Notes under the pieces: model-generated
The model's input: only the letters and a program-made list of their open reading frames with translations
What the model was told of the DNA's origin: nothing
Databases searched by the model: none
Shown here: piece after piece, positions 46,292 through 50,477 of the stretch
Numbering within the stretch: the stretch's first letter is position 1
Layout: every line of letters begins with the position of its first letter
Translations under genes and position numbers: made by a program
NCBI GenBank assembly: GCA_905182135.1
Contig: CAJJAG010000001.1
Span: 186,001-250,000 of the forward strand
Length of the DNA: 64,000 bases
Source: an uncultured Acidimicrobiaceae bacterium
GTDB lineage: Bacteria; Actinomycetota; Acidimicrobiia; Acidimicrobiales; UBA10347
Direction of reading: 5' to 3'

Positions 46292-46411
46292 ACGCTGCTA
46301 ACTCGTACAGGCTCTAACACGCCTGGGCTTACGTACCAGTGTCATGGACGGTGTTAGGTAGAGCGCTATCTCAAAACATTGGACTGACCGATGCGACACT
46401 GCAGCCACGCT

Positions 46412-46466
46412 AGGCAGCACCGACCTGAGGCAGCACCGACCCGAGGCAGCACCGACGCTAGGCAGC
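46412..46466. repeat. Tandem repeat, 16-bp period, at the 3' end of the thioredoxin-fold gene
   Basis: AGGCAGCACCGACCTG, AGGCAGCACCGACCCG and AGGCAGCACCGACGCT (46412-46459) are followed by a partial fourth unit that overlaps the stop codon of the minus-strand gene. Confidence 0.95.
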
Positions 46467-47036
46467 GATGAGTTCGTTGATTCGGGCAGTCAGGCCTTCG
46501 AGCCCCAGAGGCCCGATATGACTCTCGATAGTTCCGTCATTGTTGATGAAGACGAATGACGGCTGGGACGTGATCCTAAACTCGCGCCAGATCTCGATAT
46601 CCGGATCAGCAATGTGCTCGAACGCGTCGACGCCGCGGTCGGTGATCCATTGCTGGAACGTGTCGGCATCGTCACGACCAGCAACGCCGATCATGGTGAC
46701 ATCATCTGCAAACAATTGTTGAACCTCTGCGACCGCAGGAGCTTCTAGGATGCAGGTCGCTCACCAGGGCGCCCAGAACCATAGAACTACGTCTTGGCCC
46801 TCGAATGACCCGAAGTCGATCTGACCGCCGGTCACGGTTGTCGCCACACGTGAGGGTTCAGCGGTGGCTTCCTCGATAGGGGCAGCTTGGTCTGCTTCTT
46901 CTGCCGGGGCTGAGGCGGCACCTGCGGTGTCGCCTGAGCTACCGCCACAGCTGGTGGCAACTATGGCGGTCACAGCCAGAGCCACGAACAAGCTTCGTAA
47001 CTTCTTTGAGGCCCGGAGCATCATGAACAAGAGCAT
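46458..47036 (-). CDS. Predicted selenoprotein: thioredoxin-fold (TlpA-like) lipoprotein with UxxC active site
   Basis: 192 aa if the in-frame TGA at 46761-46763 is read as selenocysteine (residue 92). The start is one of three near Met codons (47036, 47024, 47021). The N-terminus is a lipoprotein signal (KKLRSLFVALAVTAIVATSC, lipid-modified Cys then GGSSGD) and an acidic linker. The thioredoxin fold begins GGQIDFGSFEGQDVVLWFWA and PW, then TGA, Ala-Thr-Cys, ILEAPAVAEVQQLF and FRITSQPSFVFINNDGTIES with the cis-Pro. The normal motif is WAPWCxxC, so TGA takes the place of the first catalytic Cys. The frame is intact on both sides, and a hairpin follows the TGA at once. A Cys-to-stop mutation is the alternative. 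It likely acts outside the membrane, with copper genes upstream. Confidence 0.78.
46729..46760 (-). promoter_or_regulatory. Candidate bacterial SECIS hairpin directly after the in-frame TGA
   Basis: Reading the minus strand, GCGACC follows the TGA immediately and pairs perfectly with GGTCGC 20 nt later; past a single bulged T, GCA pairs with TGC, giving a 9-bp stem. The apical part (13 nt) can form a further short helix around nt 15-21. Bacterial SECIS elements sit in the coding region right after UGA and often carry a bulged U. It also encodes residues 93-103. Confidence 0.65.
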
Positions 47037-47092
47037 ATGGCGAGTTGTACGGGCCTGTCCGTCACCCTGATTAACGACGGAGAAACTCACAC

Positions 47093-47122
47093 TTCGGTCC
47101 TTGATTGCAATCAAGGACCGAA
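47093..47122. promoter_or_regulatory. 30-bp perfect palindrome upstream of the selenoprotein gene
   Basis: TTCGGTCCTTGATTG and CAATCAAGGACCGAA are exact reverse complements with no spacer. The site lies 57 bp before the ATG at 47036, in the 227-bp gap after the HMA-cupin gene. An operator for a dimeric regulator is the best reading; an RNA hairpin that ends or protects the upstream transcript is possible, but no T run follows. Confidence 0.8.
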
Positions 47123-47263
47123 ATCGGCCCATCAATGATCTGTGGCCCTCACTGTCCACCGCTGTTGGCAGCCCTAGCAACATCGACTGGCCGCCAGCGA
47201 CTGCGTCAACCGAGCGGCGCTGCGCTGCTTGTACCAAGGGGCTTCGTTATTCAGCCATGCCAG

Positions 47264-47749
47264 TTATCGGTCGAGAAGTTCGACCTCGACAAAGGCAACC
47301 GTTGTGTCGCCGTCGTTAGCCACATTGTGTGCCACGCCCTTGCCCCGCTGGTAGGACACACCGATCGTTATCGGCGCGACAGCGCTGGTGTCATCAGTTT
47401 CAATGGTGAGCTCACCATCGGTGACGGGGACCACCACATAGTCAAATGCGTGCACATGAGGGCCAGTCTCGGTTCCAGGCGGGAAGGTCCACTTAGTAAC
47501 CCGAACAACACCATCATCGAGCTGTTGTTCAGCCGCTGCGGCCCCTCGTTGTCGAGATGCGTCGTAGCCGGCCTCGTCGATGGCCCGAAGAATCGCAATG
47601 CTCTCACCACCTATAACAGTCACAAGTTTTGCATCGACGTCAACATCGATCGACGTCACACCAGGAACCTGGTCGAGTTCGGCAGTAATTGCGTTCACAC
47701 AGTGCTCGCAGCTGATCTCTGGCACGGAATACATCATTGGTGAAGCCAT
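47264..47749 (-). CDS. Heavy-metal-associated (HMA) domain fused to a cupin domain
   Basis: 161 aa from ATG 47749. Residues 1-65 are an HMA copper-chaperone fold with the metal motif ISCEHCVNAITAELDQVPGV. Residues ~80-160 form a cupin (RVTKWTFPPGTETGPHVHAF, DYVVVPVTDGELTIET, then RGKGVAHNVANDGD), with the His-x-His and later His as metal ligands. It follows copA by 45 bp. A chaperone that passes copper to, or senses it through, the cupin is plausible. I know of no well-described protein with this order of domains. Confidence 0.85.
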   Translation of the reverse strand: MASPMMYSVPEISCEHCVNAITAELDQVPGVTSIDVDVDAKLVTVIGGESIAILRAIDEAGYDASRQRGAAAAEQQLDDGVVRVTKWTFPPGTETGPHVHAFDYVVVPVTDGELTIETDDTSAVAPITIGVSYQRGKGVAHNVANDGDTTVAFVEVELLDR

Positions 47750-47794
47750 AACTCGTTCTTTCTTGGGAGACAATGAGAATGGAAATGCTGGCGG

Positions 47795-50008
47795 TTACAA
47801 GGTAATGGCACGGTACCCAGTAAAGCGGCGCAGTCTCAAGCTATTGCTGACCACGAAAAGCGATGAGATGCCCATTGCGCCCGCTGCAATCATGGGATTC
47901 AGCACACCGAATGCTGCGAGCGGGATCGCAGCCGCGTTGTAAGCGAACGCCCAGAACAGATTGCCCTTGATGGTGCTGAGAGTTCGGCGGGCCAAGGCAA
48001 TTGCGTCGGCTACTGCTCGAAGATCGCCGCTCACCACGGTCAGATCCGATGCCTGAATAGCTATGTCGGTGCCCGTACCTACAGCGATGCCGATGTCGGC
48101 TTGGGCCAGCGCAGGTGCATCGTTAATACCATCACCGACCATGGCCACCCGATGGCCCGCTGCTTGCAGTCGTTTGATTTCATCGACCTTGCCACTCGGT
48201 AAGACTTGGGCGATGACATGGTCGACACCGACGGCGGCACCAACCTGGTCTGCGGCTCGCTGGTTGTCTCCGGTGAGTAATGTGACTTTCAAACCCTGTT
48301 CGTGGAGAGCCGCTACTGCTGCTGCACTTGTGTCTTTCAGCGTGTCGGTTACGACAAGCACACCCTCGGCTTGTGTACCTCGACCAACCAGTACTGCTGT
48401 TGCACCGGTGGCTTCGGCTTGTTCGGCCAACGCCTCAACACCATCCGGGACCGTCTCGAACAGCAGACGACGGCCTACCCGCACTTGCACTCCGTTGACC
48501 AACCCTGTCACGCCATACCCCGCTCGTGACTCGAAGGCTTCCACAGAGCGCAGGTCTGTGGAAGCCTTCGAGCCAGGCCCCACTGTTCCCGTTGCGATCG
48601 CTTGAGCGATGGGGTGCTCCGAAAAGGTCTCAAGCGAGGCCGCTAGTACCAGTAGTTCGGCTTCATCGGCGTGACTCAGTGCAGGTACGTGAACGCCGAC
48701 CAACTGCATTTTTCCTTCGGTGATCGTGCCAGTCTTATCGACGACGACAACGTCGATATCTCGAGTATCTTCCAGGACCTCACCGCCCTTAATGATCACG
48801 CCAAGCTGTGCACCTCGGCCAGTCCCAACCATGATGCCCAACGGTGTCGCCAACCCCAGTGCGCAGGGGCACGCGATGATCAGCACCGCTACAGCCGCAG
48901 TGAATGCGTCATCTGCCCCGTGACCTAGCCCAAACCACGCAATCAGCGTGAGAAGAGAAGCAGCGATGGCAACCGGAACAAAGACTGCCGAGACCCGGTC
49001 GGCCAGGCGTTGCACATTGGCGCGACTTCCCTGGGCCTGATCGACCAACATGATGATTTGAGCGAGCGCTGTCTCAGAGCCAACGCGAGTTGCTTCAACC
49101 GTCAACGTGCCATTGGTGTTGATCGTGGCTCCGATGACCTCGTCGCCAACATCAACATCGACAGGCACTGGTTCACCCGTCACCATTGCCATGTCAACAG
49201 CGGAGCTCCCTGCGACGACTACCCCATCGGTTGCGAGCTTCTCGCCGGGACGAACAATGAACCGCATACCAACAACCAGGTCATCGAGCCGGATTTCACG
49301 ACCGTCTTCAAGCCGAGCTGTGCTGGCGCCGAGGTCCGCAAGCGCACGAATTGCATCACCGGACCGCCGGGTTGCCCGAAGTTCGAACCACTTGCCGAGG
49401 AGAATCAATGTGACGATTACTGCGCCCGTCTCGAAGTAGATGTGTCCGCCACCGACATCCCCCACAAGCACGACTGCAGACCACGTCCATGCAGCCGACG
49501 ACCCCATTGAGACCAGCGTGTCCATGGTTGTGGCACCGTGGCGAAGGTTCATAGCCGCAGAGCGATGGAATGGCCAGCCACACCAGAACACAACCGGTGT
49601 GGCCAACGCTGCCACGATCCATGTCCATCCAGTAAAATGTAAGGGCGAAGCCATCGTGATCGCCATAGCCGGAACGGCAAGCACAATGCCGACGATCAAG
49701 CGACGCCGCAGGTCCGCCTCGCGCCGATCACCCGCGTCATCCGCGTCGGTCTGATCAATCACGGCATATCCCAGACCATCTATTACGTCGGCGACCTGGG
49801 TATCGGTCACGTCGGCATTACGCATCATGGTCGCTCGCCCAGTGGCGAAGTTCACCTGCACATCAGAAAGCCCGTCTAACTTTGCGAGCTTGCGCTGAAT
49901 CCGGTTTGCGCAGGCTGCACACGTCATGCCGTCAACCATCAACTCAGATCGTTCGGTCGCTATGGCCCGAGCGCTCTCGGCCTGCGGATTTGAGAGGGGT
50001 GATGTCAC
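47795..50008 (-). CDS. copA: Copper-translocating P1B-type ATPase
   Basis: 737 aa from GTG 50008. It has an N-terminal HMA domain (LMVDGMTCAACANRIQRKLA), eight membrane helices, the TGEPVPVDV actuator motif, the CPC metal site (VLIIACPCALGLATPLGIMV), the phosphorylation site DKTGTITEG, the SEHPIAQAI nucleotide-binding His-Pro and MVGDGINDAPALAQADIGIA; helix 7-8 residues YNAAAIPLAAFGVL complete the Cu+ pattern. It exports Cu+ from the cytoplasm. The MerR gene upstream and the promoter at 50016-50046 point to copper induction. With that promoter the transcript would start at or near the GTG, so it is probably leaderless. Confidence 0.95.
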   Translation of the reverse strand: MTSPLSNPQAESARAIATERSELMVDGMTCAACANRIQRKLAKLDGLSDVQVNFATGRATMMRNADVTDTQVADVIDGLGYAVIDQTDADDAGDRREADLRRRLIVGIVLAVPAMAITMASPLHFTGWTWIVAALATPVVFWCGWPFHRSAAMNLRHGATTMDTLVSMGSSAAWTWSAVVLVGDVGGGHIYFETGAVIVTLILLGKWFELRATRRSGDAIRALADLGASTARLEDGREIRLDDLVVGMRFIVRPGEKLATDGVVVAGSSAVDMAMVTGEPVPVDVDVGDEVIGATINTNGTLTVEATRVGSETALAQIIMLVDQAQGSRANVQRLADRVSAVFVPVAIAASLLTLIAWFGLGHGADDAFTAAVAVLIIACPCALGLATPLGIMVGTGRGAQLGVIIKGGEVLEDTRDIDVVVVDKTGTITEGKMQLVGVHVPALSHADEAELLVLAASLETFSEHPIAQAIATGTVGPGSKASTDLRSVEAFESRAGYGVTGLVNGVQVRVGRRLLFETVPDGVEALAEQAEATGATAVLVGRGTQAEGVLVVTDTLKDTSAAAVAALHEQGLKVTLLTGDNQRAADQVGAAVGVDHVIAQVLPSGKVDEIKRLQAAGHRVAMVGDGINDAPALAQADIGIAVGTGTDIAIQASDLTVVSGDLRAVADAIALARRTLSTIKGNLFWAFAYNAAAIPLAAFGVLNPMIAAGAMGISSLFVVSNSLRLRRFTGYRAITL
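48530..48572. repeat. Perfect 18-bp inverted repeat inside copA
   Basis: CTCGAAGGCTTCCACAGA (48530-48547) and TCTGTGGAAGCCTTCGAG (48555-48572) flank a 7-nt loop. It codes for the variable stretch between SEHPIAQAI and AGYGV in the nucleotide-binding domain and leaves the frame intact. Confidence 0.95.
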
Positions 50009-50069: not shown

Positions 50070-50477
50070 TCACGGGAACACCGACCCGGCAATCACCTGG
50101 CACCGATTGGGGTCTGTGCATGCACCAGGATCAAGCGAGCGCGCCCGTCTTGCCAACTCGCTGAGCACAACCCGCGCCGACTTCAGCCGTTCAACCTGAT
50201 CGTCGATGTCCGCTAGGTGCCGCTCTAGCAGCGCTGTGGTGTGACCACAGGAGCCTTCGCCCGCTTCCTTCAGCTCAAGAACCGACGCTATTTCCCCCAA
50301 GGACAGACCCGTCGCCTGCGCATCGCGAATGAACATCAGCCGTTCAGTTACACCACCGCCATAATCGCGATAACCCGCTGTTGTACGCGGAGGTTCGGCC
50401 AGAAGACCAATCGACTCGTAGTAGCGGATCGTCTTGGTCGAGACATGGGTTTGGGTAGCGAGTTCGCCGATGCGCAT
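50070..50477 (-). CDS. MerR-family metal-responsive regulator (CueR-like)
   Basis: 135 aa from ATG 50477. The N-terminal winged helix is MRIGELATQTHVSTKTIRYY with ESIGLLAEPPRTTAGYRDY, then the dimer helix (LLERHLADIDDQVERLKSAR) and a C-terminal metal loop with two Cys (GACTDPNRCQVI), as in Cu+/Ag+/Au+ sensors. A further Cys-His pair lies at SCGHTTALLERHL. It is followed by copA with a MerR-type promoter between, so copper-activated control of copA is very likely. Confidence 0.9.
   Translation of the reverse strand: MRIGELATQTHVSTKTIRYYESIGLLAEPPRTTAGYRDYGGGVTERLMFIRDAQATGLSLGEIASVLELKEAGEGSCGHTTALLERHLADIDDQVERLKSARVVLSELARRARSLDPGACTDPNRCQVIAGSVFP

Follow-up and report, generated by a model that had tools for sequence, protein, structure and literature searches.

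Does the TGA codon that interrupts a predicted thioredoxin-fold lipoprotein gene in an uncultured Acidimicrobiaceae bacterium encode selenocysteine (Sec), and how might the product relate to the copper-export genes beside it? The window analysed here is a 64,000-nucleotide stretch of DNA (contig CAJJAG010000001.1, positions 186,001 to 250,000), in which the gene occupies positions 46458-47036 of the minus strand. Comparative sequence analysis indicates that it almost certainly encodes a selenoprotein thiol-disulfide oxidoreductase with Sec at the UGA codon 46761-46763. The features of the locus are listed below.

46458..47036, minus strand: predicted Sec-containing DsbF/TlpA-like lipoprotein gene, approximately 189-192 codons with one in-frame TGA (PF00578, 3.8e-14; PDB 3ios, 1.6e-24)
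46761..46763, minus strand: in-frame UGA, predicted to be read as selenocysteine, at the first UxxC position (TGA at the identical site in 30 WAPWU genes)
46940..47036, minus strand: predicted lipoprotein signal peptide and lipobox, from a candidate start (lipobox Cys invariant in the homologue alignment)
46722..46743, minus strand: putative SECIS hairpin, with GGUC as apical loop (46731-46734), 26 nt behind the UGA (comparison across homologues)
47264..47773, minus strand: HMA-cupin fusion, on the same strand as the Sec gene and separated from it by 227 bp on the upstream side (also beside the Sec gene in sister genome G001)
47795..50008, minus strand: CopA-type heavy-metal P-type ATPase (family match), listed as a neighbour
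50070..50477, minus strand: MerR-family regulator (family match), a neighbour

Translation of the window confirmed, as the preliminary description had claimed, that this minus-strand frame is broken by a single codon, the TGA at 46761-46763, which occupies the place of the first active-site residue in a TlpA/AhpC-TSA lipoprotein. The 100 intact codons that it had described behind the TGA were counted and are exactly 100, ending at the stop codon TAG 46458-46460; they encode a cis-Pro loop (TSQP) and a C-terminal helix. Under the usual ORF rules the gene is split into two false ORFs (46761-47237 and 46458-46715), again as described. Three ATG codons are candidate starts (47036, 47024 and 47021), and no clear Shine-Dalgarno sequence was seen before them. 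The N-terminal part of the protein contains a lipobox (...VATSC, followed by GGSS), and the active-site stretch reads WFWAPW-U-ATC-ILEAPAVAEV. The PF00578 (AhpC-TSA) match of the read-through protein spans both sides of the TGA and reaches 53.1 bits against a gathering score of 26, with UxxC present; the Redoxin and Thioredoxin families are matched as well. Both sequence and fold support the description of a lipid-anchored UxxC thioredoxin, while its mass, given as about 19 kDa, is corrected to a computed mature mass of about 17.3 kDa before lipid. Rfam and ARAGORN runs on the window itself returned no matches. Short direct repeats (GTCGGTGCTGCCT...) are found at 46411-46463, immediately 3' of the stop codon.

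The AlphaFold model of the protein has a pLDDT of about 94 or more in the domain, from residue 61, and places position 88 directly before helix 89-104. By sequence and fold combined, the best solved matches are Mycobacterium tuberculosis DsbF (3ios; E 1.6e-24, rmsd 0.9 A, 36% identity) and MPT53/DsbE (1lu4). These proteins share with the window protein the fold, the WFWAPWxxxC motif, the cis-Pro and an extracytoplasmic location, but carry Cys at the attacking position, where the window protein has a predicted Sec with a SECIS element. Since its motif is UxxC and not CxxC, the window protein is best described as a Sec relative of DsbF rather than as DsbF. The TlpA/ResA/CcmG thiol-disulfide reductases likewise share the fold and membrane anchoring on the outside, but they too have Cys at this position, and the window protein falls below their curated cut-offs; in rhizobia, TlpA is involved in copper-site maturation. 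The UGC-containing TlpA family (NF041054, WAxxUGC_long) has a ResA/TlpA-like Sec thioredoxin fold in common with it, but the window protein scores only 31 bits against a cut-off of 300 and its motif is UxxC, not UGC. No NCBIfam model matched the Sec protein over its own cut-off, and the Sec lineage of the window matches no curated family.

Selenoproteins of this kind are known: reviews (PMC13188914, PMC1794560) include both UxxC/UxxU proteins of PF00578, termed Prx-like thiol:disulfide oxidoreductases, and TlpA-like selenoproteins with UxxC or UGC. The expectation that the protein would be unusual was therefore too strong: UxxC/UxxU selenoproteins of the fold are in the literature, and here they form an order-wide family. 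The Prx-like selenoproteins (table in PMC13188914, earlier list in PMC1794560) resemble the window lineage in having PF00578 as best Pfam match, UxxC, a bSECIS behind the UGA and UxxU forms, the last in its sister lineages. Their examples are mainly deltaproteobacterial, whereas the window lineage is actinobacterial and DsbF-like. Our literature search did not find this actinobacterial lineage of Sec proteins described, and found nothing relevant on selenoproteins in Acidimicrobiia.

The TGA is conserved well beyond the window. Four of the five sister genomes of the genus (G001, G002, G003 and G005) retain it in a WAPWU gene, with identities to the window protein, by search, of 70% in G001, 50% in G002 and 52% in G003. 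The best match in the fifth (G004) is a WGVHUGRC relative that also has TGA there. In the G005 copy, both active-site residues are encoded by TGA (WAPWUPFU); at this locus (L022/L131, G005:C360:2667-2987), the two TGA codons lie 9 nt apart and a single GGUC hairpin follows. A search of 397 genomes of the order gave matches at 1e-12 in 198, and nearly all of the best matches have one TGA, with about a score having two. The TGA is found at the WAPWU site in approximately 25 further genomes from other families, representing at least four families of the order. That sister genomes and the wider order have the codon at the identical site means that it is not there by chance. Elsewhere in the actinobacteria, the best 80 named homologues all have Cys (WFWAPWC), in a set for which one search pattern used had a Cys codon at the active site. 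A comparison of the window gene with its G001 counterpart gives a dN/dS of 0.10 for the part after the TGA, which indicates purifying selection. This is the opposite of the pattern of Cys-bearing sister homologues with a decaying second half that had been named as the sign of a nonsense mutation. Bootstrap trees recovered a single origin of Sec in only 52% of cases.

A hairpin behind the UGA provides the signal expected of a bacterial SECIS element. Its position is fixed at +20 to +41 from the UGA in WAPWU genes, the apical GGUC is present in 30/30 of them, and 29/30 form 7-8 of the 8 stem pairs; the GGUC loop with the four inner pairs was sought in 95 Cys homologues and found in none. Both sides have undergone changes in five of the eight stem pairs. 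Covariation scores 0.275, compared with 0.121 after shuffling, and 0/500 shuffles reach 0.275, although the sequences are related and the shuffles are uncorrected for kinship. The covariation is lost when the partner is slid by 1-3 columns. Silent codon choice is frozen in the Sec genes (Val GTC 30/30, Ala GCG 28/28, Pro CCT 20/21), whereas codon choice varies at these positions in Cys homologues; between the window and G001, pS is 0.15 in the frozen hairpin codons and 0.70 farther downstream. Some genes have paired stem changes that also alter the peptide (EAPAVAE to EAGAVAS).

We built a covariance model of the SECIS from 27 genes, with the window and G001 left out. It recognised the hairpin at the window UGA with 52.1 bits (E 4.6e-13), the next match scoring 13.7 bits (E 0.038), and also matched the Sec genes of sister genomes; the maximum in seven genomes with a Cys best homologue, five of them without selA, was 21.6 bits. 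Published bSECIS criteria specify a small apical loop with a G in its first two positions, 16-37 nt after the UGA, on a stem of 4-16 bp with an MFE of -7.5 kcal/mol or lower. The GGUC loop, the 26 nt spacing and the seven pairs with one mismatch of the window hairpin all fit, and its MFE of -7.1 kcal/mol is just outside the limit, within which other copies fall. Taken alone, the window hairpin is not better than codon shuffles (p 0.44), and folding the full 71 nt that follow the TGA with RNAfold gave no structure signal (z 0.84). Applied by set, the codon-shuffle test showed excess structure for the Sec genes as a whole (Fisher 1.8e-6) and no such excess for the Cys genes (0.23). The SECIS signal thus becomes visible only in a comparison of the local hairpin among homologues.

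The source genome also encodes most of the machinery for Sec insertion. The genes selA (386 bits against a cut-off of 268) and selB (291 against 242) are adjacent (L001), SelB carries the winged-helix domain PF09107, and a tRNA-Sec with anticodon UCA (TCA in DNA) scores 69.7 bits against a cut-off of 47. Of the components that the preliminary description had linked to this reading, selA, selB and tRNA-Sec were thus recovered and selD was not: it had no match over cut-off in the source assembly, which comprises 2.36 Mb in 8 contigs and is 60% complete, or in G003. It is over cut-off in the other four of the five sister genomes (G001, G002, G004 and G005). The selD genes of three sister genomes (L143, L144 and L145) themselves contain an in-frame TGA. 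tRNA-Sec is over cut-off in five of the six genomes of the genus, and selA was found in all 28 examined genomes with a Sec gene of the family (27 over cut-off, with a partial match in G001) versus 5/10 genomes with a Cys best homologue (Fisher P 5e-4).

Machinery genes, conservation of the TGA in homologues, selection downstream of it and a covarying SECIS together support the claim that Sec is encoded at this codon. An altered genetic code or general read-through, with TGA as an ordinary residue, would account for a frame that is open once TGA is counted as a sense codon, but we consider it very improbable and rejected it: the MerR, ALDH and SelA genes of this genome terminate in TGA, the codon stands in for Cys and not Trp, and the SECIS is specific to Sec genes, being absent from the Cys homologues and Cys-only genomes examined. 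Least probable of all, to the point of being negligible, is a recent stop codon in a decaying Cys gene, a pseudogene reading to which the Cys of all 80 listed homologues from other actinobacteria and the missing selD of the source assembly would be favourable, but which we rejected because the TGA is common to four sisters and some 25 genomes of other families, the downstream half is under purifying selection and the hairpin is conserved and covaries.

The preliminary description had also linked the protein to copper handling. Five of 31 top-listed Sec genes (from 24 genomes) are located 10 kb or less from a heavy-metal ATPase against 0.28 expected (P 1e-5), a count which includes the discovery case and from which contig ends hide some neighbours. 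CopC or CopC-CopD genes occur near three of the order's Sec genes, and the HMA-cupin gene stays beside the Sec gene in G001 (L128:8954-9508). The copper association of Sec genes is therefore recurrent and above chance, but it is seen in a minority of loci, and that part of the claim which concerned the export genes themselves did not extend to G001, in which CopA and MerR are absent between the HMA-cupin gene and the next conserved gene. At the loci retrieved from sisters G002 and G003 we saw no copper genes, a metal ATPase within 10 kb is lacking at most loci of other families, and a conserved operon of the Sec gene with copper genes, the criterion for a copper-handling TlpA-like protein, was not found. 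With the recurrence on one side and these loci on the other, we give an even chance to the alternative that the neighbours are accidental and the Sec gene has no connection with copper. A role of the Sec protein in thiol protection or repair near copper-export genes, in some species including the source, is a tentative proposal to which we assign somewhat less weight.

The product would be a DsbF/MPT53-type (TlpA-like) thiol-disulfide oxidoreductase that is anchored by lipid and acts outside the cytoplasm. SelB and tRNA-Sec would insert Sec at UGA 46761-46763, directed by the SECIS hairpin 26 nt downstream. We infer that the selenolate, at the N-terminus of helix 1, may attack substrate disulfides or other oxidised thiols outside the membrane, after which the resolving Cys of WAPWUxxC would close a selenenylsulfide that would need re-reduction from the membrane side. 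Net reduction or isomerisation is probably the direction of the reaction, and we favour it over net oxidation. Sec lowers the redox potential, which favours reduction or thiol exchange, and a weakly matched DsbD/CcdA-like membrane gene precedes the Sec gene by 64 bp in G080 and is close to it in G218. Alternatively, the protein could act in net oxidation, forming disulfides in exported proteins in the manner of M. tuberculosis DsbE/DsbF and regaining its oxidised state from a quinone-linked partner. We regard this as unlikely, even though the nearest solved relatives are DsbF and MPT53/DsbE, and these Cys relatives are reported to promote oxidative folding in vitro (PMC3853704). Membrane proteins with an NPCGFxLLPAY motif and weak DsbD/CcdA-like family matches lie directly upstream of, or close to, the Sec gene at L194:4678-5703 and L193:4049-5083.

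The window gene is one of several predicted Sec forms in the order, which include WAPWUxxC, WGxHUGxC, WAPHUPTC and UxxU, often with several per genome. The source genome has a second predicted Sec lipoprotein, WAPHUPTC (C6:365724-366107; L045/L138), whose group has its own hairpin with an AGUUN loop, farther from the UGA than the GGUC hairpin and likewise covarying (0.506 versus 0.141). These observations raise the possibility, which we judge to be about evenly balanced, that the order has built a large set of Sec-containing extracytoplasmic thioredoxin-fold lipoproteins into a selenium-dependent envelope redox system that lies outside curated family models and has one branch tied to copper export. 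If so, the envelope redox chemistry of these bacteria would depend on selenium. Annotation pipelines split such genes into false ORFs, and an order-wide selenoprotein class in uncultured actinobacteria is therefore likely to go unnoticed. The SECIS, with its fixed spacing, GGUC loop and pairing-forced peptide changes, offers a sharp search model for further genes, and the Sec/Cys split inside a single order turns the question of why some lineages retain Sec into a testable one. A third Sec group, WGxHUGxC, was observed in the sister genomes (L023, L024 and L025).
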